DNA of 64,000 bases. Source: Cycloclasticus sp. (GTDB lineage Bacteria > Pseudomonadota > Gammaproteobacteria > Methylococcales > Cycloclasticaceae). Position 1 is the first letter of the stretch. Every line of letters begins with the position of its first letter. Made by a program: the position numbers and the translations under genes. Shown piece after piece: positions 7,301-20,149 of the stretch. Below the pieces are notes generated by a model. It was not told the DNA's origin and made no database searches. It saw nothing but the letters and a program-made list of their open reading frames with translations. The DNA is taken from assembly GCA_002700385.1 (NCBI GenBank), contig PADC01000011.1:157190-221189 (forward strand). The letters run 5' to 3'.

Positions 7301-9385
7301 TTATTTACTCTCTTCACGTTCTTTAGCTTCCTTAATCACTTCTTCAGCAACATTTTTAGGACACGGCATGTAGTGAACAAATTCCATAGAGAACTGGCCA
7401 CGACCTGATGTCATTGTACGAAGATCACCAATGTATCCAAACATTTCGCTTAGGGGTACTTCAGCTTTAATGCGAACACCCGTTGCGCCAGCGTCTTGAG
7501 ACTTGATCATGCCACGGCGACGGTTAAGGTCACCAATCACGTCACCGACGTGATCATCCGGTGTAAATACATCAACTTTCATGATCGGCTCCATCAATTG
7601 TGCACCCGCTTTAGGCATAGATTGACGGTAAGCCCCGTTTGCTGCCAATTCGAATGCAACTGCAGAAGAGTCAACTGCATGGAAAGCACCATCCATCAAC
7701 GTGACCTTAACATCCACACAAGGATACCCTGCTAAAACACCTTTGGCCATTTGCTTTTCAAAACCTTTTTCTACAGCAGGCCAGTATTCACGGGGTACGT
7801 TACCACCCGTTACTTTAGATTCAAAACTAAAGCCTTCGCCTGTTTCTGCCGGCTCAAGAATGTAATCAATCTTACCGAATTGACCCGAACCACCCGATTG
7901 TTTCTTATGCGTATAGCTGTCTTCTATACGCTTAGTAATTGTTTCGCGGTAGGCGACTTGTGGTTTACCAACGCTAACATCAACACCATGTGTACGCTTA
8001 AGGATATCAATTTTAATATCCAGGTGAAGCTCACCCATCCCTTTAAGAATGGTCTCACCACTGTCTTCGTCTGTTTCAACACGGAATGAAGGGTCTTCTT
8101 TGATCATTTTACCGATTGCAATACCCATTTTTTCGGAACCGCCCTTATCTTTTGGCGATACGGCAATAGAAATCACAGGATCAGGGAAAATCATTGGTTC
8201 TAGTGTTGCTGGGTTTTTAGGGTCACATAACGTATGACCTGTTTGCACATCTTTCATACCCACAACCGCAACAATATCACCCGCTACCGCACCTTCTAAT
8301 TCAATACGCTCATCCGCGTGCATTTCTACTAAACGGCCAATACGCTCTGTTTTACCGGTAAATGTATTTAAAACGGTATCACCTTTGTTCATCACACCGG
8401 AATAGATACGAATAAATGTTAAAGCACCAAAACGGTCATCCATAATTTTAAACGCCAAGGCGCGTAACGGACGATTTTCGTCAACGATGGCAAATTCACC
8501 GGTTTCCTTCCCTTCTTCATCCGTTTCTGGCTGGGGCTTAACTTCTGTTGGGTTTGGTAAGAAATCAACAACTGCATCCAGCACTAATTGAATACCTTTG
8601 TTTTTAAAGGCTGAACCACAATACGTTGGGAAGAAATCCATCGCAATGGTGCCTTTGCGGATACAACGCTTAATATCTTCTATCGATGGCTCTTCCCCTT
8701 CAAGGTACGCTTCCATCAAATCATCATCTTGCTCAACCGCGGTTTCAATCAATTTTTCACGGTACTCTTCAACTTTGTCAGCCATATCAGCCGGCGGTTC
8801 GCTAACTGTATAATTTTCTGGTTGCCCGGAATCATCCCAAACATAGGCTTTACGTGATAACAAATCTACAACACCCACAAAGTCATCTTCGATACCAATA
8901 GGCAGCACCATAACTAACGGATTTGCATCCAGCACATTTTCAACTTGGTCGACAACGCGGTAAAAATCCGCGCCCATACGATCCAGTTTATTAACAAAAA
9001 TAACTCGAGCCACCTCGGATTCGTTTGCATAACGCCAGTTTGTTTCTGATTGAGGCTCAACACCACCTGAACCACAAAACACACCAACACCCCCATCGAG
9101 TACTTTAAGTGAACGATACACCTCAATAGTGAAATCAACGTGGCCCGGCGTATCAATAATATTCATGCGGTGACCGTTCCACTCACATGATGTGGCAGCT
9201 GACTGAATAGTGATGCCACGTTCAGCTTCTTGCTCCATAAAGTCAGTGGTTGCTTCACCGTCGTGAACCTCGCCTGTTTTATGGATTTTACCGGTTAATT
9301 TTAAAATACGCTCTGTGGTGGTGGTTTTACCTGCATCCACGTGGGCGAAAATACCAATATTTCTATATTTGGATAAGTCAGTCAT
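7301..9385 (-). CDS. fusA2: Elongation factor G, EF-G2 type
   Basis: 694-residue translational GTPase promoting ribosomal translocation or recycling. GTPase motifs: AHVDAGKTT (G1, about 14-22), RGITI (G2), DTPGH (G3) and NKLD (G4), followed by the EF-G domains II-V. The N-terminal sequence, including [15 protein letters not shown] in the switch II to G4 region and [15 protein letters not shown], closely resembles the second EF-G of vibrios rather than the str-operon FusA. It stands alone with no rpsL, rpsG or tuf next to it, supporting a paralogue. A GST gene lies upstream on the same strand with a 133-base gap. Identification as EF-G is certain; the EF-G2 subtype is my reading from memory of the family. 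Confidence 0.9.
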
Positions 9386-9518
9386 AAGTCTACGAAAGTT
9401 AAGTTAATAAAATGTTATCCAAACAAAAAGCCAACGCTCTCGTTAAAAGATTATTCGTTTGAATGAACTCATTATTGTATCACTTAAATAAATCTGATGG
9501 ATACACTACGCTAAATTA

Positions 9519-10142
9519 TTAACCAACGGCTGCCTCTCGGCTGATCACTTTTGCAAAAGAAGGTCTCGCACTCATTCGATCTCGATAATCATCCAGCACT
9601 TGAGAGCCCGAGGCAACGCCAAAAGCATCCGCCCATCGCAGTGTATGTGCCAACAAAATATCAACCGCAGAAAACTGATCACCCAACGCAAATTTTTTGC
9701 CTGAAAGATTCTTCTCTAAGGCTTTGCAAGCTTTTAAAAATTCCCAACGCGCGACGTCAAGAATAGCCGGAACACGTTTATCTTCAGGAAAAACAAACGT
9801 ATGTTTACCAATCGTCCATAAGGGCTGCTCAAGCTCTGTCAAAATAAAAAAACACCCTTCATCGTATTTTGCTCTTTGCTGCGTTCCAGCAGGCGGGATC
9901 AAGCCTTGCGCAGGGTACTTGTCGCCTAAATAAGTCACTATTGCCGCAGACTCAGTCAAAACAAAGCCCTCATCATCAATCGCTGGGACTTTACCGTCAG
10001 CATGTATTTTTAAATAGTCTGCGGTTTGACCTTCTCCTTCTAGCAGCTCTATCTTAATGAACTCATAATCAATCCCTAATTCTTCTAGCATCCACACCAC
10101 ACGCGTACTTCTGGATCTAGGGTAACCGTATAATTTAATCAT
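9519..10142 (-). CDS. Glutathione S-transferase family protein
   Basis: 207 residues with an N-terminal thioredoxin-like GSH domain and an all-helical C-terminal domain. The start IKLYGYPRSRSTRVVW places a Ser/Arg cluster where the catalytic residue of bacterial GSTs lies, and KVPAIDDEGFVLTESAAI carries the cis-Pro and the Glu-Ser pair (ESA) that bind glutathione. The C-terminal LSGKKFALGDQFSAVDILL is the N-capping motif of the GST core. It would conjugate or reduce electrophiles in the cytoplasm; the substrate is unknown. An AAGGAGAA ribosome site precedes the ATG. Confidence 0.88.
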   Translation of the reverse strand: MIKLYGYPRSRSTRVVWMLEELGIDYEFIKIELLEGEGQTADYLKIHADGKVPAIDDEGFVLTESAAIVTYLGDKYPAQGLIPPAGTQQRAKYDEGCFFILTELEQPLWTIGKHTFVFPEDKRVPAILDVARWEFLKACKALEKNLSGKKFALGDQFSAVDILLAHTLRWADAFGVASGSQVLDDYRDRMSARPSFAKVISREAAVG

Positions 10143-10216
10143 CCGTCTTCTCCTTGTTGATTCTCTTCTCTTACCTCTTTTTTACACCACCATCACCAAA
10201 CGATAAGCAAATACAA

Positions 10217-10242
10217 AAAACCCCGGTTTAACCGGGGTTTTC
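10217..10242 (-). terminator. Rho-independent terminator of glnK-amtB
   Basis: A perfect palindrome AAAACCCCGGTT/AACCGGGGTTTT with T-runs on both sides, 16 bases after the amtB stop. It can work in both directions but there is only the minus-strand operon to serve. Confidence 0.92.
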
Positions 10243-10257
10243 AACGCGACTAGGAAC

Positions 10258-11556
10258 TTAAAGGTTATATCCCGTTTCTTCGTGCGAAACAACATCCAAC
10301 CCTTGTTGCTCTTCTTCTTCGTCGACCCTTAAGCCATTTGTTAATACACTAACCAATTTCAAAATGACATACGTTGCAACAGCCGTAAACGCTATCGTTG
10401 ATAAAACACCGGTCAATTGAACAGTAAACTGCTCGGCGATCGTCGAAAGGCCGTCGGCAAACCCATAGCCACTCAAGACACCCAATTGAGTTGAGGCGAA
10501 GACAGCGACAACCAAAGAACCTAATATTCCCCCAACCCCATGAACGGGAAAAACATCCAAAGAATCATCTATTTTTAGTCCCCTTTTAATGTATTGAGTC
10601 GCGCTAAAACAAACCAGCCCGGCTAACAACCCAATAATCAACGCGCCACCTGGCCCAACAAAACCTGAGGCAGGGGTGATGGTTCCCAGTCCTGCAACCA
10701 TGCCGGTAACCGCACCCAGAGCACTGGGCTTACCAAATTTCTTCCACTCAATGATCATCCATGTAAAAGCACCCATTGAGGCAGACATATGCGTCACGAT
10801 AATGGCCATTGCCGCATCACCGTTAGCGGCCAAAGCACTTCCGCCATTAAAACCAAACCAGCCAACCCACAGCATACCCGCCCCTGCAATGGTCATACTT
10901 AAGTTATGCGGCGGCATGGGTGTGGTAGGGAATCCTTTTCTAGGGCCGATAACAAGAGCAGCGACTAAAGCTGCCACACCCGCTGTGATATGCACAACAA
11001 TACCACCTGCAAAGTCATAAACACCCATCGAGCCTAACCAACCACCACCCCAAACCCAGTGAGTAACTGGCGCATAAACGATAATAAGCCAGATTGCGCT
11101 GAACAAAAGCATCGCAGAAAATTTCATTCTTTCTGCAAATGCTCCAACAACCAGAGCAGGCGTGATGACTGCAAATGTCATCTGAAACATGGCAAATAAA
11201 GATTCTGGAATATCCCCAGCTAACGATTCACGACTGATACCAGAGAACATCATCTTTGAAAAATCGCCAATCCAAGCATTTCCTTCACCAAAGGCCAAAC
11301 TATAACCCACAATAAACCACAGTATTGACGCCACACAGGTAATCGTAAAACACTGCATAAAGACGGACAAAACGTTCCTGCTGCGCACGAGTCCGGCATA
11401 GAACATAGACAGCCCCGGAATGGTCATAAAAAGCACCAAGGCTGTGGAGGTTAATATCCAAGCGGTGTTCGCTGCATTCAGTTCCTCAGCAAAGGCGATT
11501 CCGGGCACAACCAGCAGACTAAGAAGTAAGCCGTAATTCATTCTTCTTGCACTCAT
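10258..11556 (-). CDS. amtB: Ammonium transporter AmtB
   Basis: 432-residue inner-membrane channel for ammonium uptake. An N-terminal cleavable signal (MNYGLLLSLLVVPGIAFAEE, starting at residue 6) is followed by eleven membrane helices. Family landmarks: THWVWGGGWL with the first periplasmic tryptophans, YDFAGGIVVHITAG holding the conserved Asp and first pore His, and DVFPVHGVGGILG with the second pore His. The ATG directly abuts the glnK stop with no gap, so translation is coupled. As known for this pair, GlnK should block the channel when nitrogen is plentiful. A leftward terminator follows the gene. Confidence 0.95.
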   Translation of the reverse strand: MSARRMNYGLLLSLLVVPGIAFAEELNAANTAWILTSTALVLFMTIPGLSMFYAGLVRSRNVLSVFMQCFTITCVASILWFIVGYSLAFGEGNAWIGDFSKMMFSGISRESLAGDIPESLFAMFQMTFAVITPALVVGAFAERMKFSAMLLFSAIWLIIVYAPVTHWVWGGGWLGSMGVYDFAGGIVVHITAGVAALVAALVIGPRKGFPTTPMPPHNLSMTIAGAGMLWVGWFGFNGGSALAANGDAAMAIIVTHMSASMGAFTWMIIEWKKFGKPSALGAVTGMVAGLGTITPASGFVGPGGALIIGLLAGLVCFSATQYIKRGLKIDDSLDVFPVHGVGGILGSLVVAVFASTQLGVLSGYGFADGLSTIAEQFTVQLTGVLSTIAFTAVATYVILKLVSVLTNGLRVDEEEEQQGLDVVSHEETGYNL

Positions 11557-11952
<396 letters not shown>

Positions 11953-12035
11953 TCATCAACCTATTTTGGTGCATCCTTAACGGTTGCATCGGTCTATTTT
12001 AGGGAGCGTTAATCAAGCCCTCATGCACCCAATGC

Positions 12036-13235
12036 TCAAAAATGTCGCGCCAACTCAAATTGGACTATGTCATCATGACGCAAAGACGTTAATGGATCGA
12101 CAGACGAACCCGCCGAAATAATCCTCACTTCGGCACGAAGCACCCAAGAGGCTCCAAAACGTCGGCTGGCTTCTATGTTATAGAAACGGGCGTTGTTATT
12201 GACATCATTGATCACACCGAGCAGCACTTCACTGGAGGCGGCATCATTCATTGCTAATCGCCCACCCAGAAATAGATCATTATCAAAAGCAGTCGTTGCA
12301 TTCGAGCCGCGGTCATCATACAAATATTCTGCGATAACACCAACGTCTGCCGCGGAATCAAACACACCCACAAAGGTGTATTCAAAACCCAGTGTAAAAG
12401 CATTATAGGTGTCAGCCTGACCACTTCGGTGGATCAATTCAAATTTCCATAGCCATTCATCTAATGTCGCTTGAATGTCGATACCTGTTTGGTTGATGAT
12501 GTCGTAAAAAGGAAGCAAGGTCAGTCCTTGAGCTGTTGGTGTTGGAATAATGCGCGGCTCACGGCTTGTACCATAAAAATGAGAGACGCCAACATCCCAA
12601 TCATCAAAGGTTTGGCTCCATCGAATGGCATAGTCAACGTGTTTATTTTTTGCCGCTGATTGATAGATGGCATGATCGTCTATAGCAGGGTTTGACCGAA
12701 AGCGACCATCTTTCCCAGGAAAAGTTCGTTCTCTAAAGCCCGGCAACACAAAAAAATCAATAGCCCCCCAGTCCTTTAACAGCGTGAAGTTAATCATGGG
12801 TTGGCCCAATTTGTCTTCACCATCAATATTTTCCACCAGATCCGTCTGATTAATAATATCGACCAAATGTTGAGATTCAGCGACGCCCCAAAAGACTTTA
12901 CCAACACCTACGCGCAGCTCCCAATCATCGACTGCACGCATCCAAATTAATTCACGAATATCAACATGACTCCGTTTGGCATCGTGCTCATCCCAGCGTA
13001 TAAATGGAACAAACGTCAAACTGTCATCCTCCCAGCTATGATAAAACTCGGGCTCTGCAGAAAATGATGCGCTGCCACCCTCAAATTGCTCTGCATTTAA
13101 GGCGGATTGAGGGAAAAAGCTATATTCAGCTGCCAGATAACCCGACCATTCACCCGCCAAGGTTATTGAACACACCAACGACATGATGGACAGTAAAATA
13201 AGGCTTAATATGTTTTGGCTTTTTCTGGCATGCAT
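12036..13235 (-). CDS. Outer-membrane beta-barrel protein of unknown function
   Basis: About 399 residues with a signal peptide (hydrophobic stretch SLILLSIMSLVCSITLAG). The mature part alternates aromatic and polar residues in many short strands, and the chain ends in an aromatic (ELARHF), the usual BamA recognition signature of an outer-membrane barrel. I do not recognise a named porin family. A GTG start three codons upstream (13244) is possible; the ATG at 13235 follows an AGAG element. It is the most distal gene of the leftward monooxygenase-RND-LolA-like series, 22 bases after the LolA-like stop, so a role in moving a lipid or hydrocarbon-derived compound across the outer membrane is plausible but unproven. 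Confidence 0.72.
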   Translation of the reverse strand: MHARKSQNILSLILLSIMSLVCSITLAGEWSGYLAAEYSFFPQSALNAEQFEGGSASFSAEPEFYHSWEDDSLTFVPFIRWDEHDAKRSHVDIRELIWMRAVDDWELRVGVGKVFWGVAESQHLVDIINQTDLVENIDGEDKLGQPMINFTLLKDWGAIDFFVLPGFRERTFPGKDGRFRSNPAIDDHAIYQSAAKNKHVDYAIRWSQTFDDWDVGVSHFYGTSREPRIIPTPTAQGLTLLPFYDIINQTGIDIQATLDEWLWKFELIHRSGQADTYNAFTLGFEYTFVGVFDSAADVGVIAEYLYDDRGSNATTAFDNDLFLGGRLAMNDAASSEVLLGVINDVNNNARFYNIEASRRFGASWVLRAEVRIISAGSSVDPLTSLRHDDIVQFELARHF

Positions 13236-13257
13236 CGTTATCACTCTTTACTTCAGT

Positions 13258-14034
13258 CTATTTTGCCCTTTTTAAGCTGGCTTTACTAAAATCACGCTCA
13301 CTCAAGCCTGTCTGAAATTGATAATCCGAAAACTCCAATAGCGTTTCTTTTTTTGTTTGATGATTCACCATATTCATCGTAGCGGGACGCCAATATTTTC
13401 CTAAATACTGTTGATAACCCCCAGCAACCATGGTTTTGAGTAATACATTTTTTCGATCATAAAACTCGATTTTCAACGGCTGATAAATGCGCTTACTCAT
13501 CCAGATGACTGAACGTGTGTACCCAGAGTATTTGTAATTAGGTCGTGCTTCAAAAACAAAGGCTTCTTCACCCTCGATCACGTCATCCTTTAAATACAGG
13601 TAGTTATATTTTTCAACTTCACGAGAGGCCAGATCTTCAAAAGCAAATTCGCTCCCCATAAAAGGGCCGGATTTATTTTTTGATGAAATACGTTTAACAC
13701 GTTTTAACGCTGGCAGATAAAGCCATTGATCATCCGCTTCTAGAATATGCGTAAATGATAAAAAGGCCGTCCCCTTTACATCAGCAGGTTTATCGAAAAT
13801 AGTGAGCCCCTTGTCACCATCGCCTTGCACCTCAAGCGTTTTTGAGCGCATTTTTCTAATACTCGTATCACCGTTCGCATTTTTTAACGTCATCGTTAGC
13901 AAAGATGAAAGGTCACCAAACCCTGCATCACGCTTGTCCGCCTCTACCGCAATTTCCAACCCCTTTTCTTCCGCCGTTTGAGCCGTAACACCTAACGGCA
14001 ATAAACACATGATTATGAGAATTAATTTATTCAT
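13258..14034 (-). CDS. LolA-like outer-membrane lipoprotein-sorting protein
   Basis: 258 residues with a signal peptide (MNKLILIIMCLLPLGVTAQ). The mature chain has the pattern of the LolA-like periplasmic family found beside MMPL/RND exporters: a central WLYLPALKRVKRISS segment, GPFMGSEFAFEDLA, and late strands SVIWMSKRIYQPLKIEFYD. Members of this fold form half-barrels that bind acyl chains or lipids in the periplasm. Its ATG overlaps the stop of the upstream RND gene by 4 bases (ATGA), showing tight coupling to the exporter. It probably acts as a periplasmic carrier or partner of the pump; the cargo is unknown. It is distinct from housekeeping LolA. Confidence 0.82.
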   Translation of the reverse strand: MNKLILIIMCLLPLGVTAQTAEEKGLEIAVEADKRDAGFGDLSSLLTMTLKNANGDTSIRKMRSKTLEVQGDGDKGLTIFDKPADVKGTAFLSFTHILEADDQWLYLPALKRVKRISSKNKSGPFMGSEFAFEDLASREVEKYNYLYLKDDVIEGEEAFVFEARPNYKYSGYTRSVIWMSKRIYQPLKIEFYDRKNVLLKTMVAGGYQQYLGKYWRPATMNMVNHQTKKETLLEFSDYQFQTGLSERDFSKASLKRAK

Positions 14035-16328
14035 TTTTCACCCTTATCAAATTTAAGTAATAAAACTGGTAGCAATAGAAAATCGACAACCAACGCTAAA
14101 CAAATAATCCATGTGGTAAGCATGGCCATATCTGAATTCATTGTAAATGGCGATGTCATTAACACGCCAAACCCAACCATTAATACAATCGTACTCACTA
14201 TTAACGCCCTACCCACGTGGGTAAAGGCGTAAGTAATCGCTTGTTCAGCACTGTATCCTTTTTCACGCCTTGCTCTTAGGTATTTACTGAGGAAATGCAC
14301 GGTATCGTCCACTACGATGCCCAACGTCATGCTAACCACCACAGCCAACGCCATATTGACCTCAGCATATAACAAACCCCACAAGCCAAAACCAATCGTC
14401 AAGGGCACCAGATTTGGCACCAAGCTGATCAGCCCAACCTTCAATGAACTAAGCGCCAAAATCAGTATCATCGAGATGACGAACAAAGCCAAAATAGACC
14501 CATACAGCATCCCTTCAATATTTTTCTCTGGAATTTGCGCAAACATCATCAACGTTCCGGTGCCTTTCGTTTTCATGAATGCTGGCATATGCTCTGCATA
14601 CCATGATTGCACCCGTTTTTCAAAGTTTAGTAACTCTACATTACTGAGTTCAACCATTGTGGCAATTAACCGCGTTTCAGACTTGTCTACATTCACTTGA
14701 TTATTTAAATCGAGCCCATAGGGTAATGACATTTCGTACAACAAAAGATACTGCGCGGCTAATTCCCTGCTTGTCGGCAATGCATACCCGTCCTCTTCAT
14801 CGCCATGCATGTTTTTATTGAGTCGTTTTATCGTATCTGTTAACACGTAACTGTTAATGACTTCGGGCTGCGCTAAAAGCCATGAATTAAATGTCTCTAG
14901 ATGTTGAAGGTACTCAGGTTGACTAATCCCGCCCGGAGAACCCGCCGGTATTGCATACATTAATTGATACAGGCCACCTAAATTTTCTGTTGCAAAATCC
15001 GTATCTATTCTAAATTGCATTGATGTATCAAAATACTTCAAGAAACGCTCTTCAGGCTGATTAAAGGAGGCAAAATAGGCCGATGACAAAACCACACCGC
15101 CCATGGTAATTAATATGAAATTTTGCCTCTTAATTACAAAAGTGGCTATGGCTGATAGATAACTGACGCTATTTTGCCTTTCTTTTCGATGACGAACGGG
15201 TAAAAAGCTCATCAATGCAGGCAAAAAAGTTAGCGAAAAGCACATCGACGCAAAAACCCCCATGGCGACCAAGTTGCCTAAGTCATTAAACGGCGGCACT
15301 TCACTAAAGTTCATTCCTAAAAAGCCGACCATTGTCGTCAAACTGGTTAATATAATGGGCTGAACATTAACCCTCAAACTCTCTGTTAAAGCGAGTCGTT
15401 TAGTACTGTTCTGCTGCAGGCCGAATAAAAATGAAACCAACATATGCACACTGCTTGCAACCGCCAGCACCATTGTCATTTGTACAGATGACATTGAAGC
15501 CGGCGTTAAGGAAATACCTAAATACCCGCCTATTCCCATGGTTGTGATCACAGAAAAAATAATCACCAGCATCACGCCTACCACCGCACTGATACTGTTC
15601 AACAAGGCATAAAGCAAAACAAGCATGGCTAGAAAGCTCAATGGAACCAAGGTTGTCGAATCTCTTTCCCCTGCTTCTACAAACGCCTTATTTAAAAACG
15701 CAACCCCCGTAATATGGAAATCAATTTCGGGGTATTTAACCTTATATTGCCGAACCATCTCACGCGCATATCTCACAACAGAGTCAAGCTCGGCCTCTCT
15801 TTCCAAGCCTGGAAATTCGATGGTGATGTTGATGGCTGTTACTGCGCCATTACTTGACACCATGCGCTTTAATAGCAAGGGGTCGCTTAAGGCAATTTTT
15901 TTTATGCGCAGGATATCGCTGTCAGATAAGTTTGGGGCATCTTCATACAAATTTTCAACAATCAAATCATCGTCTTCTGCATACGTATTTTGAAAGTTTT
16001 GAATCGAATCAACACGTCTTGAATACGGCATTTGCCAAGATGACTCAGTCAACGCTTCGATCATAGCTAAAACAGCCGGTTGAAAAACATCGCCTTTTTT
16101 GGGCGCAACAAGAATGAACACATTATCCGACTTGGTATAGGTTGCCTCCAACGCATTAAAAGCTAATAAATCGGGGTTATCCTCGGTAAAGAAAACACGG
16201 TAGTCCGTGTCAAAACTCAAAAACTTTAGCCCATTGGCTGAGACAAGCACAATGATCACACTCAACACGATAAGAGGGATTCGGCATCTCATCACCCAAT
16301 CACTAAAATAGCGTTCAAAAAAGTGCAT
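14031..16328 (-). CDS. RND/MMPL superfamily exporter, copy A
   Basis: 765 residues with the twin-repeat layout of MMPL-type RND transporters: an N-terminal helix (about 17-35), a periplasmic domain to about 220, five to six helices, a hydrophilic link near LPVRHRKE, and a second copy of the same order. The second half ends with GIVVDDTVHFLSKYLRA, where the paired Asp residues are the proton-relay acids of the family. Such proteins export lipids or hopanoid-like molecules to the periplasm or outer membrane. It is a tandem paralogue of the gene at 16429-18726, exactly the same length, and overlaps the LolA-like gene by 4 bases. Confidence 0.88.
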   Translation of the reverse strand: MHFFERYFSDWVMRCRIPLIVLSVIIVLVSANGLKFLSFDTDYRVFFTEDNPDLLAFNALEATYTKSDNVFILVAPKKGDVFQPAVLAMIEALTESSWQMPYSRRVDSIQNFQNTYAEDDDLIVENLYEDAPNLSDSDILRIKKIALSDPLLLKRMVSSNGAVTAINITIEFPGLEREAELDSVVRYAREMVRQYKVKYPEIDFHITGVAFLNKAFVEAGERDSTTLVPLSFLAMLVLLYALLNSISAVVGVMLVIIFSVITTMGIGGYLGISLTPASMSSVQMTMVLAVASSVHMLVSFLFGLQQNSTKRLALTESLRVNVQPIILTSLTTMVGFLGMNFSEVPPFNDLGNLVAMGVFASMCFSLTFLPALMSFLPVRHRKERQNSVSYLSAIATFVIKRQNFILITMGGVVLSSAYFASFNQPEERFLKYFDTSMQFRIDTDFATENLGGLYQLMYAIPAGSPGGISQPEYLQHLETFNSWLLAQPEVINSYVLTDTIKRLNKNMHGDEEDGYALPTSRELAAQYLLLYEMSLPYGLDLNNQVNVDKSETRLIATMVELSNVELLNFEKRVQSWYAEHMPAFMKTKGTGTLMMFAQIPEKNIEGMLYGSILALFVISMILILALSSLKVGLISLVPNLVPLTIGFGLWGLLYAEVNMALAVVVSMTLGIVVDDTVHFLSKYLRARREKGYSAEQAITYAFTHVGRALIVSTIVLMVGFGVLMTSPFTMNSDMAMLTTWIICLALVVDFLLLPVLLLKFDKGEK

Positions 16329-16428
16329 GCAAATTCCTTAGGTCATTAGGGCGATAGTGTGGGCCGTTTGGCACAGAACATACTGTAACAAGAACCCAGG
16401 CTTAGAACGACTCACTACAAACAACTCC

Positions 16429-18726
16429 CTATGGCTTTTCTTTATCAAATTTAATCAACAAACCTGGTAAAAAAAGGAAGTTTGCCACTAAAGCGGCAAT
16501 AATGATCCAAACCGTCAAAATGGCCATGTCCGTTGTCATCGCAAAATGCGATGCCATCAAGGTACCAAAACCCGCAACTAACACCAATGTGCTGATGCTC
16601 AACGCTTTACCAACATGCGTAAAGGCATAGGTGATCGATTGCTCGGTGGTATACCCCTTTTCACGTTTAGCACGCAGGTATTTACTCAAAAAATGCACTG
16701 AATCATCGACGACAATACCCAGAGTCATGCTGACAACGACCGACAACCCCATATGAACCTCACCGCTCAAAACGCCCCATAATCCAAAACCAATAGCCGC
16801 CGGCAAAATATTTGTCATCAAGCTAAACAGCCCCATTTTAAAGGACCGAAGTGCAAACATTAAAATGGCAGAAATAATAATTAATGCCAACACCGAGCCC
16901 ACAATCATGCTGGTCGTATTGGTGTCAGCCAAATGAGAAAACATCATCAATGTTCCTGTTCCCGTGGTTTTCATTGAGGCAGGCGCGTTCTCTCGTAACC
17001 AGGCCTGAGCCCTGTCTTCAAGGGCCATTAATTCGTTATTCGTCATATCCTGTATGGTCACCACGACACGCGTGGCGGATTTATCAACATTCACTTGGTT
17101 ATTTAAATCCAAACCATACGGCAGCGACATTTCATACAACAGCATATACTGTGCGGCCAATTCACGACTTTCAGGCAATGTATACTTATCAGGGTCGTCG
17201 CCATGCATATTCTTATTTAACCGCCTCATGGTGTCGGTAAAAACAAATACACTGATAGTTTCAGGTTGCTCTCGATACCAGGTCGCAAACTTCTCCAGAT
17301 TTTGCAGATACTCCGGCTCACTAACGCCCCCGGCTGTTTCCGCTGGCATTGAATAGGTTAACTGGAATGTACCACCCATAATGTCCAGTGTCGCATCAGA
17401 ATCTATACGAAATTGAACGGTTTTATCAAAGTACGTTGTAAAGTGCTCTTCAGAGGTGTTGAGTGGAATGCCAACAGAAGAAATAACCGCTACAACACAC
17501 ATAACGATTAATAGTCGGCGATGATATTTTATGGAAAACAGTGACAGCTTTTCTAAATATTTAACCGAACCATCCTCACCCAGTTTTACCCTAACGGGTA
17601 AAAAGCTCATCATTGCCGGCAAAAAAGTTAATGACAGCACCATAGAAACAAAAACACCCACCGCCACCAGGTTACCAAGGTCTCTATACGGCGCAGACTC
17701 ATTAAAATTCATCCCCAAAAAGCCGATTATTGTGGTCACGCTCGTTAAAATAATTGGCAGCATATTAATGCGTAAGCTTTCTTTTAATGCATCCACTTTA
17801 GCGACGTTATGTTGCAAGTCAAAAATAAACGTCACCAGCATATGTACGCTATTCGCCACTGCTAAAACCATGATCATTTGACCTGATGAAACCGAGCCAG
17901 GTGTTAACAAGACACCTGCATAGCCCCCCAACCCGAAAGCGGTGGCTGTCGACATCAATATGATCAACGTCACGCCAAAGACTGCGCTGAGGCTTCTCAG
18001 CAAGAAAACTAAAAAAAGAACCATCACAAGAAAACTGATTGGAAACAGCGTGCTGCCATCACTCTGCCCCGATTCCACAAAGGCATTATTCATAAAGGCC
18101 ATACCCGTCACATAGAAGCGGACGTTCGGGTACTGTTCTTGATATTTTTTAACCAATTCACGTGAATACGCAACGACCTCGCGCAGCTCTCCTTGCGGGT
18201 CAACCTCCGGAAATTCGATCGTGACATTGACTGCTGTCGCTCGGCCATCTTTAGAAATCATTCTTTTAAATAACAACGGCTCAGTCAATGCAATCGACTT
18301 AATATATTCAATATCTTCTTCTGCTAACGATTCCGCATCAACATACAAATCCTCTACAATCAGATCATCTTCTTCTGCATAGGTGTTTTGATAATTTTGA
18401 ATCGAATCCACACGGCGTGAATGAGGAATTTGCCAAGCCTCTTCCGTTAATGCTTCTATCAGCGCTAAATATTCTGGTTGAAAAACATCACCATTCTCTG
18501 GCTCAACAAGAATAAACACATTATCAGACTTTGTATAAGTCGCCTCATTCTGATTAAACGCGATTAAGTGCGGGCTGTCTTCTCTAAAATAGACCCGATA
18601 ATCGGGTGTAAATCCAAGGTACTGGACACCAAATGACGATGCCGCCACCACAACTATACTGAGCACAATGATGGCCAAACGATAGCGCATGACCCATTCA
18701 CTGAACCGAGTTTCTAAACGATGCAT
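16429..18726 (-). CDS. RND/MMPL superfamily exporter, copy B
   Basis: 765 residues, colinear with copy A from the first helix to the C-terminal LLIKFDKEKP. The second periplasmic domain shares long near-identical stretches with copy A (LNKNMHGD, ELAAQY, LLYEMSLPYGLDLNNQVNVDKS), while the first periplasmic domain and several helices have drifted. GIVVDDSVHFLSKYLRAKREKG carries the Asp pair. It is separated from copy A by 100 bases and lies 68 bases after the XylM-like stop. The two copies may work as a heteromer or have split substrates. Cargo is not known; the adjacent hydroxylase suggests a hydrocarbon or lipid product. Confidence 0.88.
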   Translation of the reverse strand: MHRLETRFSEWVMRYRLAIIVLSIVVVAASSFGVQYLGFTPDYRVYFREDSPHLIAFNQNEATYTKSDNVFILVEPENGDVFQPEYLALIEALTEEAWQIPHSRRVDSIQNYQNTYAEEDDLIVEDLYVDAESLAEEDIEYIKSIALTEPLLFKRMISKDGRATAVNVTIEFPEVDPQGELREVVAYSRELVKKYQEQYPNVRFYVTGMAFMNNAFVESGQSDGSTLFPISFLVMVLFLVFLLRSLSAVFGVTLIILMSTATAFGLGGYAGVLLTPGSVSSGQMIMVLAVANSVHMLVTFIFDLQHNVAKVDALKESLRINMLPIILTSVTTIIGFLGMNFNESAPYRDLGNLVAVGVFVSMVLSLTFLPAMMSFLPVRVKLGEDGSVKYLEKLSLFSIKYHRRLLIVMCVVAVISSVGIPLNTSEEHFTTYFDKTVQFRIDSDATLDIMGGTFQLTYSMPAETAGGVSEPEYLQNLEKFATWYREQPETISVFVFTDTMRRLNKNMHGDDPDKYTLPESRELAAQYMLLYEMSLPYGLDLNNQVNVDKSATRVVVTIQDMTNNELMALEDRAQAWLRENAPASMKTTGTGTLMMFSHLADTNTTSMIVGSVLALIIISAILMFALRSFKMGLFSLMTNILPAAIGFGLWGVLSGEVHMGLSVVVSMTLGIVVDDSVHFLSKYLRAKREKGYTTEQSITYAFTHVGKALSISTLVLVAGFGTLMASHFAMTTDMAILTVWIIIAALVANFLFLPGLLIKFDKEKP

Positions 18727-18794
18727 TTACAACCTCTTATTTAATTCGTAAGTACTGACTGTTTAGCCGTACCCGTTACTTACCCTGCTACTTT

Positions 18795-19880
18795 TTACAC
18801 CCAACCCGCTTTAATATTAGCTTGCCGAGCTAACTCTTGTTCAGCTTCGTTTGCCATCTGTTCATCCCAAAGTGCTAACTGCGGTTTAACAATTTTACTT
18901 TCCCAGATGGGTGGCACAAACGCACAAACAAAGCACAACGCTATGCTCGGTAATTGTGGCGCATCAGGGAAGGGCTTTAAATCAGTATAATAACGCGTTG
19001 GTTTCAAATGGTGTTCCGAATGATTTGAAATTTCAAAAGAAAGAGAACGGCTTAACGGCTTTAATTGATTCCATGAATGCCGCGGTTCAATCGGTGCATC
19101 TATCTCCCGAATCAAACCATAATGCTGAGTATAATTAAAGCCACCTAATACCAGATAAAAGACAATCATTGTCAACACATACACGGGCAGCGCCTGGAGT
19201 CCTGCCACAGAAAACCAGACTGACAACCAAATAGTTATCAAAACAACCGATTGGAAAAACCGGCCCTGAGGTGACCATAACGATTTTTTATTCTTTCTCA
19301 ATCGCTCTTTCTCAATTTCAAACGAGTCCATCATTTGCCCCAATAATGACCTAAAAGCAAACGTGTATACCCATTCACCTCTTCGAGGGGTGTCACTGTC
19401 TTCAGACGTGGCTACTTTTAAGTGATGACCCTTAACGTGACCCAAATCATTCATGGGCAACAAAAATACCGTTAAGTATAAGGTGCAGTAAAAGCGATCA
19501 AACCCACCAAAACGATGCATTAGTTCATGTGCAGGGGGCAACCCACCCAACGCACTTAAAAAAGCTAACGACAAGATGCAACCGCTTATTTCAATAACAC
19601 TCATATCGGTGTTGTTTAGCAAATTTGCAAACATTAGCCACAAAGTCACAATTAAGGGAAATTGAAAATAAAGCACAATGTGCTGCAAACCACCCGATAC
19701 GACCGGGTGTAATTTTTCATCTCGAGGCAAGCCTACATCCAGCAACACCAACAAAATAAAACCAGCCGTACCGAGCCAAACCCAAAGCCCCTCTAGATAA
19801 AAACCCAATACCCCAATGAGCAGCATAAACGAACCTGCAAAATATCGTGGGGCCGCTAATTTTTTATTTGTTTCTGTCAT
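18795..19880 (-). CDS. XylM/AlkB-type membrane non-haem di-iron monooxygenase
   Basis: 361-residue integral membrane hydroxylase. All histidine clusters that bind the two irons are present: HELMH (118-122), GHVKGHH (147-153), the NYTQHYG signature (249-255) and NHSEHH (286-291). Length, the opening FYLEGLWVWLGTAG, the SFEISNHSEHH form and the C-terminal ANIKAGW match XylM/CymA-type xylene or cymene methyl hydroxylases better than the roughly 400-residue alkane hydroxylase AlkB. It would hydroxylate a terminal or benzylic methyl of a hydrophobic substrate. No ferredoxin reductase or rubredoxin gene is nearby. Start: a TTG five codons upstream extends the frame, but GGGAGA at 19888-19893 places translation at this ATG. 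First gene of the exporter locus. Confidence 0.88.
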   Translation of the reverse strand: MTETNKKLAAPRYFAGSFMLLIGVLGFYLEGLWVWLGTAGFILLVLLDVGLPRDEKLHPVVSGGLQHIVLYFQFPLIVTLWLMFANLLNNTDMSVIEISGCILSLAFLSALGGLPPAHELMHRFGGFDRFYCTLYLTVFLLPMNDLGHVKGHHLKVATSEDSDTPRRGEWVYTFAFRSLLGQMMDSFEIEKERLRKNKKSLWSPQGRFFQSVVLITIWLSVWFSVAGLQALPVYVLTMIVFYLVLGGFNYTQHYGLIREIDAPIEPRHSWNQLKPLSRSLSFEISNHSEHHLKPTRYYTDLKPFPDAPQLPSIALCFVCAFVPPIWESKIVKPQLALWDEQMANEAEQELARQANIKAGWV

Positions 19881-20149
19881 TTTATGTTCTCCCAATCCAA
19901 GCGTTGCGTATCAAATAGAATTTATATCATTTTATTCTAATGTAGTCTTGCCTAATATTGATGCATTCAACGAAACAGCCCGCTAAAGCTTAAACATAAA
20001 CAACGCTGGAAGATATTCGCTCAGATAAAGCCTCAGTTTAAAAAACTGTACTCGCTCTCGATCGAGCACCGCCTAGCTTAGGTTCAATCTGCCTAGGCTA
20101 ATCAAAAAAACACGATCATTTATGCACCTGAGCCAGATGCGATCATCAG

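Follow-up and report, generated by a model that had tools for sequence, protein, structure and literature searches.

An accessory AlkB/XylM-type hydroxylase gene ahead of RND, LolA-like and outer-membrane barrel genes in Cycloclasticus

The 64,000-nucleotide stretch of Cycloclasticus sp. contig PADC01000011.1 analysed here (positions 157,190 to 221,189; hereafter the window) comes from a genome of 2.52 Mb on 13 contigs (G000; G labels denote genomes and L labels fetched loci) and carries five leftward genes for an AlkB/XylM-type membrane hydroxylase, two resistance-nodulation-division (RND) transporters, a LolA-like periplasmic protein and a predicted outer-membrane β-barrel. With a probability of roughly one half, we read the hydroxylase as an accessory hydrocarbon hydroxylase whose gene stands first, ahead of an envelope-transport operon, oxidation being paired with a proton-driven route for hydrophobic molecules from the inner to the outer membrane, probably in the outward direction. 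Judged from sequence, the gene identities, their order, the intact histidines of the hydroxylase, an acidic pair in transmembrane segment 10 (TM10) of both transporters and the conservation of the linkage within Cycloclasticus are all clear. Little is understood of the way in which hydrocarbons and the products of their oxidation pass through the Gram-negative envelope.

All five genes lie on the minus strand, in the order hydroxylase (18795..19880, 361 amino acids), RND1 (16429..18726, 765 amino acids), RND2 (14031..16328, 765 amino acids), LolA-like protein (13258..14034, 258 amino acids, with an N-terminal hydrophobic, signal-like segment by hydropathy) and barrel (12036..13244, 402 amino acids, with a GTG start and a terminal Phe). 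The intergenic distances are 68, 100, −4 and 13 bp, RND2 and the LolA-like gene sharing four bases. The hydroxylase open reading frame (ORF) begins with an ATG at 19880; the ORF program extends the start to a TTG at 19895. An earlier note on this DNA had described five leftward genes with short gaps, including two 765-residue MMPL/RND exporters, a 4-base overlap with the LolA-like gene and a C-terminally aromatic barrel protein. The ORF coordinates agree with this description, as do Pfam matches to FA_desaturase, MMPL (twice) and LolA_like and, for the barrel, the final F and the structural model.

The hydroxylase matches FA_desaturase (PF00487, E 2.5e-26) and, in the PDB, the alkane 1-monooxygenases 8sbb and 8f6t (E about 5e-37). 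The histidines of its HELMH, HVKGHH, QHYG and NHSEHH motifs are invariant across 13 aligned AlkB/XylM-family proteins, the window hydroxylase included. By family and conserved histidine motifs it is thus an AlkB/XylM membrane hydroxylase, and the earlier label ‘XylM-like’ was apt, since plasmid proteins named XylM are 38–41% identical to it. We placed it in a tree of 36 rows, chosen from 40 family hits in the genus together with other sequences and holding no desaturase. The window hydroxylase clade comprises eight rows (support 100/100), and its sister group (100/99) consists of genes of metagenome-assembled genomes assigned to Immundisolibacteraceae, Rhodocyclaceae and Rugosibacter. Membership of the named-XylM clade was rejected, as that group falls elsewhere in the tree, although the deeper fork has a support of only 85/79 and the deep order is unsure because of long branches elsewhere. 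Published work describes Immundisolibacter cernigliae and Rugosibacter aromaticivorans as having many copies of xylX, and Immundisolibacter as sharing an alkB cluster with Cycloclasticus (PMC9535955). In the n-pentane bloom of a Cycloclasticus, no peptides were detected for an AlkB gene, which may or may not be the window gene (PMC12510462).

An adjacent XylA-type reductase gene, which would be expected of a XylM, is missing from the window locus. The genome does encode an unlinked candidate, a XylA-type ferredoxin reductase at G000:C3:439190-440257 (L131) with no hydroxylase beside it. This protein is 80% identical to a G006 reductase that adjoins another XylM-type gene. The gene next to the reductase is common to G000 and G006 (91%), and the XylM-type gene that lies between the two in G006 is absent in G000. 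We infer that the G000:C3 reductase may supply electrons to the window hydroxylase.

The two transporters are 60% identical to each other and match MMPL (PF03176; RND1 E 2e-33, RND2 E 3.4e-29). The best NCBIfam match of both is TIGR00921 (HAE3), nearly full-length at E 2.6e-45 and 4e-50; formal HAE3 membership was rejected at scores of 154.7 and 170.6 bits, under the curated cut-off of 351.9, and we call them HAE3-like. Both keep an Asp pair in TM10, where acidic residues of RND pumps have a role in proton relay. The LolA-like protein matches PF17131 (E 4.8e-63; 212.6 bits versus a gathering cut-off of 30), its best PDB relative is 3bk5 (E 1.4e-95), and its match to DUF1329 is only partial (E 2.5e-10). 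For the barrel, the Pfam scan returned no family. Its model, which stands beside an alignment of 21 relatives, has a mean predicted local distance difference test score (pLDDT) of 78.6 and a predicted template-modelling score of 0.73, with residues 122–141 below a pLDDT of 50. The top PDB folds are AlgE and porins, with query-normalised template-modelling scores of 0.41–0.60 among the best 50 matches listed. The model therefore indicates a large outer-membrane β-barrel, a fold that implies no function; profile comparison with DUF1302 gave a 69-column match (E 0.017, probability 2.7%).

Two observations support a partnership between the RND and the LolA-like protein. One is the 4-base overlap; the other is a single case in the class, where sequencing error is possible: in G287 (L113) an RND and a LolA-like domain are fused in one 1069-amino-acid ORF, followed by a barrel gene. 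In the Lol lipoprotein pathway the carrier takes lipoproteins from LolCDE to LolB, whereas the partner gene of the LolA-like protein here encodes an RND. A hydrophobic segment with a signal-like end persists between the two domains of that ORF. In a model of the fused protein the linker (779–823) has a pLDDT below 50, and so we claim nothing on docking.

To place the locus in its genus we searched 18 Cycloclasticus genomes. The LolA-like protein and the RND (E ≤ 1e-50) each occur in 13 of them, members of the AlkB/XylM family in 14 and the barrel, sometimes only partial where a contig ends, in 15. The window-type hydroxylase (≥65% identity) is accessory, with nine copies in eight genomes, each of which also carries the LolA-like gene. 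A same-strand RND lies downstream of the hydroxylase in all seven copies that could be tested, at distances from 68 bp in the window to 6.9 kb; in the remaining two, only 174 and 377 bp of contig are left after the gene. Hydroxylase and RND are direct neighbours in the window and in G019, and in G031 only a TetR gene stands between them. In G043:C12 the RND after the hydroxylase is a 168-amino-acid fragment, and a complete module is found on another G043 contig. Close RND1 orthologues (81–83%) are present, besides the window genome, in G031, G062, G019 and G043, all of them hydroxylase-bearing; this amounts to five of the eight hydroxylase genomes versus none of the five other LolA genomes, a comparison not corrected for kinship.

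The pairing recurs in other branches of the family. When the 40 family hits were sorted into lineages, partly by identity, a second hydroxylase of the window genome (G000:C6:308942-309946) was found near a ring-hydroxylating dioxygenase and a complete DUF1302-DUF1329-YCF48-RND set of the AmeABCD type (after ameABCD of Castellaniella defragrans). Such a set is nearby in five of the 11 genus copies of this second lineage (G000, G019, G023, G031 and G053). The G006 copy has a window-type LolA-RND-barrel set about 6 kb off, on the hydroxylase's other side, and five copies have neither set (G043, G050:C45 and G056, plus G062 and G068 on short contigs), as is also true of the more divergent copy G050:C41 on its 6.5-kb contig. 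In the third lineage each of the four copies stands directly behind a DUF1329 gene; YCF48-type, RND and DUF1302 genes are also visible in three of them, a contig end cutting the fourth. Around the other 15 family hits, no homologue of RND, LolA or barrel was found at E ≤ 1e-8 in the stretches examined, some of which were short; eight of the 15 adjoin a XylA-type reductase. A binomial estimate for three of five lineages lying beside transport sets gave 7e-4, assuming four 27-kb transport loci and independence; since catabolic genes cluster, which breaks independence, this figure should not be leaned on. Chance neighbourhood is nonetheless unlikely to be the whole story, because two other AlkB/XylM lineages lie near RND, LolA-fold and barrel sets.

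A third RND of the window genome (L049, G000:C6:350000-360330) lies with a DUF1329 gene, a gene for a 651-amino-acid protein without a Pfam match and a pyrroloquinoline quinone-type dehydrogenase gene, near ring-hydroxylating dioxygenase-like genes.

Several observations weigh against a functional tie between hydroxylase and transporters. In four of the seven testable copies (G006, G043:C12, G047 and G056) a block of catabolic genes, mostly on the opposite strand, splits the hydroxylase from the RND, and five of the 13 LolA-bearing genomes of the genus (G023, G027, G035, G065 and G068) are without the window hydroxylase. The first three of these are 99–100% complete, G065 is 58% complete (its contig begins inside the RND) and G068 73%; G027 and G035 have no AlkB/XylM family member at E ≤ 1e-10. 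No hydroxylase was found in any of 20 stretches with LolA from the wider class, and the window-type RND, LolA and barrel were found at none of ten named loci outside Cycloclasticus that hold hydroxylase relatives of 43–47% identity (L038–L047); at one of these ten, L044 from Rugosibacter, a DUF1302 and a DUF1329 gene lie 6.7 kb upstream. In the second lineage only six of 11 copies have a transport set nearby, and an opposite-strand hydrolase gene separates the second hydroxylase from the AmeD-type RND. The nine window genes scanned against Pfam include no electron-donor gene. Finally, RND1 and RND2 are only 14–17% identical to the AmeD-type RNDs of Cycloclasticus (Castellaniella AmeD being likened by description), so that AmeABCD is an analogy.

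This distribution decides the fate of the earlier proposal that the five genes form one system, which was to fall if they were not conserved together. The search for the five-gene order upheld the same-strand linkage to an RND within the genus; outside it the order did not recur at the ten named loci or in the 20 class stretches, and among the testable copies within it strict adjacency is limited to the window and G019. The transport module occurs without the hydroxylase in five genomes of the genus, no hydroxylase was found in the 20 class stretches, and more than half of the linked copies are split. A lack of joint conservation is thus partly what we observed, and because of the distribution we reject a strict five-gene single system.

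The block that intervenes in the four split copies contains a BphC-like extradiol dioxygenase and an alpha/beta hydrolase in every case, then a TetR regulator on the RND side, together with Rieske and ring-hydroxylating dioxygenase genes in varying number; a full-length ring-hydroxylating alpha subunit was not found in the G047 block. The window genome has no match to the block's alpha subunit (E ≤ 1e-100), BphC-like protein (E ≤ 1e-60) or TetR regulator (E ≤ 1e-10). Since mostly opposite-strand catabolic genes lie between hydroxylase and RND in these four copies, only the window-type arrangement leaves room for a shared transcript. One genome, G043, carries two partial copies of the aromatic block (G043:C20, L119, and G043:C12, L123), one followed by the truncated RND and the other by RND1-RND2-LolA-barrel.

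The alternative that survives best is that the module serves generally to export envelope lipids (or lipoprotein-like cargo) and is functionally untied to the hydroxylase, which landed upstream at a spot that collects accessory genes; we regard this as credible, if rather unlikely. In a class search of 274 sampled genomes, 112 had a LolA match (E ≤ 1e-20), and stretches of 5.9–20 kb were taken from 20 of these. Across 19 of them (LolA 50–67% identical; L114, with a LolA 30% identical, was left out of the count), the RND is adjacent in 14 and the barrel in 15, ten stretches having both; six contain a TetR gene. A separate locus, L130 (2 kb of G013), stayed outside the analysis. No RND was found in L101, L103, L106 and L111, though the stretch continues, and L097 lacks one because of a contig end. 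The only recurrent and adjacent partner of these modules beyond RND, LolA and barrel is a TetR family; three further recurrent clusters of three to four members each lie farther away. By gene content, then, RND-LolA-barrel is a general envelope module found without the hydroxylase in many bacteria. The same alternative draws on the five module-bearing Cycloclasticus genomes without the window hydroxylase, on the origin of the closest LolA relative in the PDB, 3bk5, from Vibrio parahaemolyticus (PMC13103446), and on the other genes found upstream of the RND elsewhere, such as the GGDEF-EAL and MauG-type genes in G023. It is opposed by the two further AlkB/XylM lineages beside RND, LolA-fold and barrel sets, and by the restriction of close RND1 orthologues to hydroxylase-bearing genomes, bearing in mind kinship and the 58% completeness of G065.

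Three side observations concern the module in other settings. A short TetR-like piece, 44% identical over about 52 residues, lies upstream of the RND in G023 (L116, 11890-12024, minus strand), a genome without a full TetR gene, and is perhaps a remnant. On the 23.9-kb plasmid NZ_CP118497.1 of Pseudoalteromonas rhizosphaerae (L158), MMPL and LolA-like genes sit beside gmtY and gmtX of a gamma-mobile-trio, and mobile elements may thus carry this transport pair. L114 (G317:C5:38000-56000) holds, at 8360-11125 on the minus strand, a 921-amino-acid ORF that joins response-regulator receiver domains to a LolA_like domain at its C terminus, an odd combination that may reflect an assembly error.

Characterised RND pumps extrude, which counts against the proposal that the module imports hydrocarbon, the barrel taking it up and the LolA-like protein ferrying it inward to reach the hydroxylase in the inner membrane. 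A published hint of such uptake comes from Thalassolituus oleivorans, in which the porin TOL_3188 was seen only on the C28 alkane and the MMPL protein TOL_3187 was 42-fold up, the authors proposing that long alkanes pass through the porin (PMC6304351); the authors of a study on a benzene-degradation cluster state that it is impossible to tell in which direction movement runs (PMC13101534). Deletion of ameABCD, by contrast, lowered the monoterpene tolerance of Castellaniella defragrans and led to more Nile Red accumulation in cells treated with carbonyl cyanide m-chlorophenyl hydrazone (PMC6394551). As these are the only functional data seen on a comparable set, and they point outward, we favour a role in tolerance or homeostasis; by this analogy transport is probably outward, and import is improbable. 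That the hydroxylase tailors an envelope lipid for export by the RND-LolA-barrel set is highly improbable: its place in the PF00487 superfamily and the lipid-linked cargo proposed for an aryl polyene RND and LolA-like set (PMC8253772) would fit, but its PDB relatives are alkane monooxygenases, it groups with XylM-type proteins (in a tree that holds no desaturase) and its relatives have genes for ring oxidation and ring cleavage as neighbours.

If, as we prefer, hydrocarbon oxidation and outward transport are paired, the substrate of the hydroxylase would be a hydrocarbon dissolved in the inner membrane, oxidised at a methyl, alkyl or ring carbon. A XylA-type ferredoxin reductase encoded elsewhere would supply the electrons, the G000:C3 protein being the candidate. 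Driven by the proton motive force, the RND pair would extract a hydrophobic molecule (surplus hydrocarbon, an oxidised intermediate or a lipid) from the inner membrane and pass it to the LolA-fold carrier, for receipt by the barrel at the outer membrane. The pairing would represent a catabolic specialisation of the general envelope module. We doubt a more far-reaching version, an oxidise-and-shuttle unit in which the membrane-dissolved hydrocarbon is oxidised and passed to a dedicated carrier within the membrane phase, the coupling having evolved at least three times in the genus with different transport sets.

Around the five genes, a terminator-like hairpin (20048..20069, minus strand; a consensus match only) lies between the upstream 225-amino-acid gene and the hydroxylase; the terminator scan gave 16 hairpin sites versus a shuffle mean of 9.6 (standard deviation 3.3). 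The promoter scan of the window was uninformative, with 18 sites versus 19.0 expected by chance. Beyond the barrel, at 83 bp, lies glnK-amtB (window 10258-12035); those genus stretches that are long enough to include it share this order. No sigma-54 site was found before glnK, and the window has two one-mismatch matches versus a chance mean of 5.9.

The repeated pairing of AlkB/XylM hydroxylases with RND, LolA-fold and barrel genes in one hydrocarbon-degrading genus offers a natural series for testing cargo and direction, spanning modules with and without the hydroxylase and one hydroxylase lineage near different transport sets.

Comparable systems are known. AmeABCD likewise combines an HAE3-type RND, a LolA-superfamily periplasmic protein and an outer-membrane protein in a hydrocarbon catabolic island, but uses a DUF1302 outer-membrane protein, a DUF1329 carrier and a fourth part, AmeC, of the photosystem II assembly-factor type, and the available text mentions no AlkB/XylM gene (PMC6394551). 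We rejected AmeABCD membership for the window locus on the low RND identity, the PF17131 rather than DUF1329 carrier and the missing YCF48-type gene, no such protein being found among the nine window genes scanned against Pfam. TOL_3187 joins MMPL and LolA-like domains in one protein, an architecture that, by description, is that of the fused L113 ORF, and the C28-raised product of the neighbouring gene, TOL_3188, is a porin without conserved domains; unlike in the window, no adjacent hydroxylase is mentioned in the part of the paper available (PMC6304351). In the benzene degrader ORM2a, a ‘Nanopod’ cluster of porin-like, DUF1329, YCF48-related and MMPL genes is expressed during hydrocarbon degradation; it differs from the window in coming from a methanogenic culture, in having DUF1329 instead of PF17131 and in showing no AlkB/XylM gene among the rows listed (PMC13101534). 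That paper cites poorer phenanthrene growth of Delftia after loss of a DUF1329 gene; the term DUF1329 is absent from the available text of the paper cited for it (PMC3958437), and DUF1302 and DUF1329 proteins are listed in nanopods (PMC3110197). The aryl polyene set ApeL-ApeM-ApeN shares a LolA-like chaperone and an RND transporter with the window, but belongs to a biosynthetic cluster with a LolB-like third part and no barrel listed in the portion available (PMC8253772).

XylM of the TOL plasmid pWW0 is 38% identical to the window hydroxylase and has the same histidine motifs, but falls in a separate tree clade. The pWW0 xylM gene adjoins a 2Fe-2S protein gene, which we take to be xylA, near an ‘outer membrane protein transport protein’ gene, and no RND or LolA gene is present in the 9 kb examined. 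In the open-licence literature, as far as its text was available, we found no AlkB/XylM gene described as collinear with a set of RND, LolA and barrel genes. The earlier remark that no described system has this exact order thus stands for the literature searched, but close precedents exist (PMC6394551, PMC13101534, PMC6304351). With similar pairings known, the locus is not a new kind of system; it is a meaningful and partly conserved arrangement of familiar parts on the known hydrocarbon-island theme of RND, LolA-fold protein and barrel.

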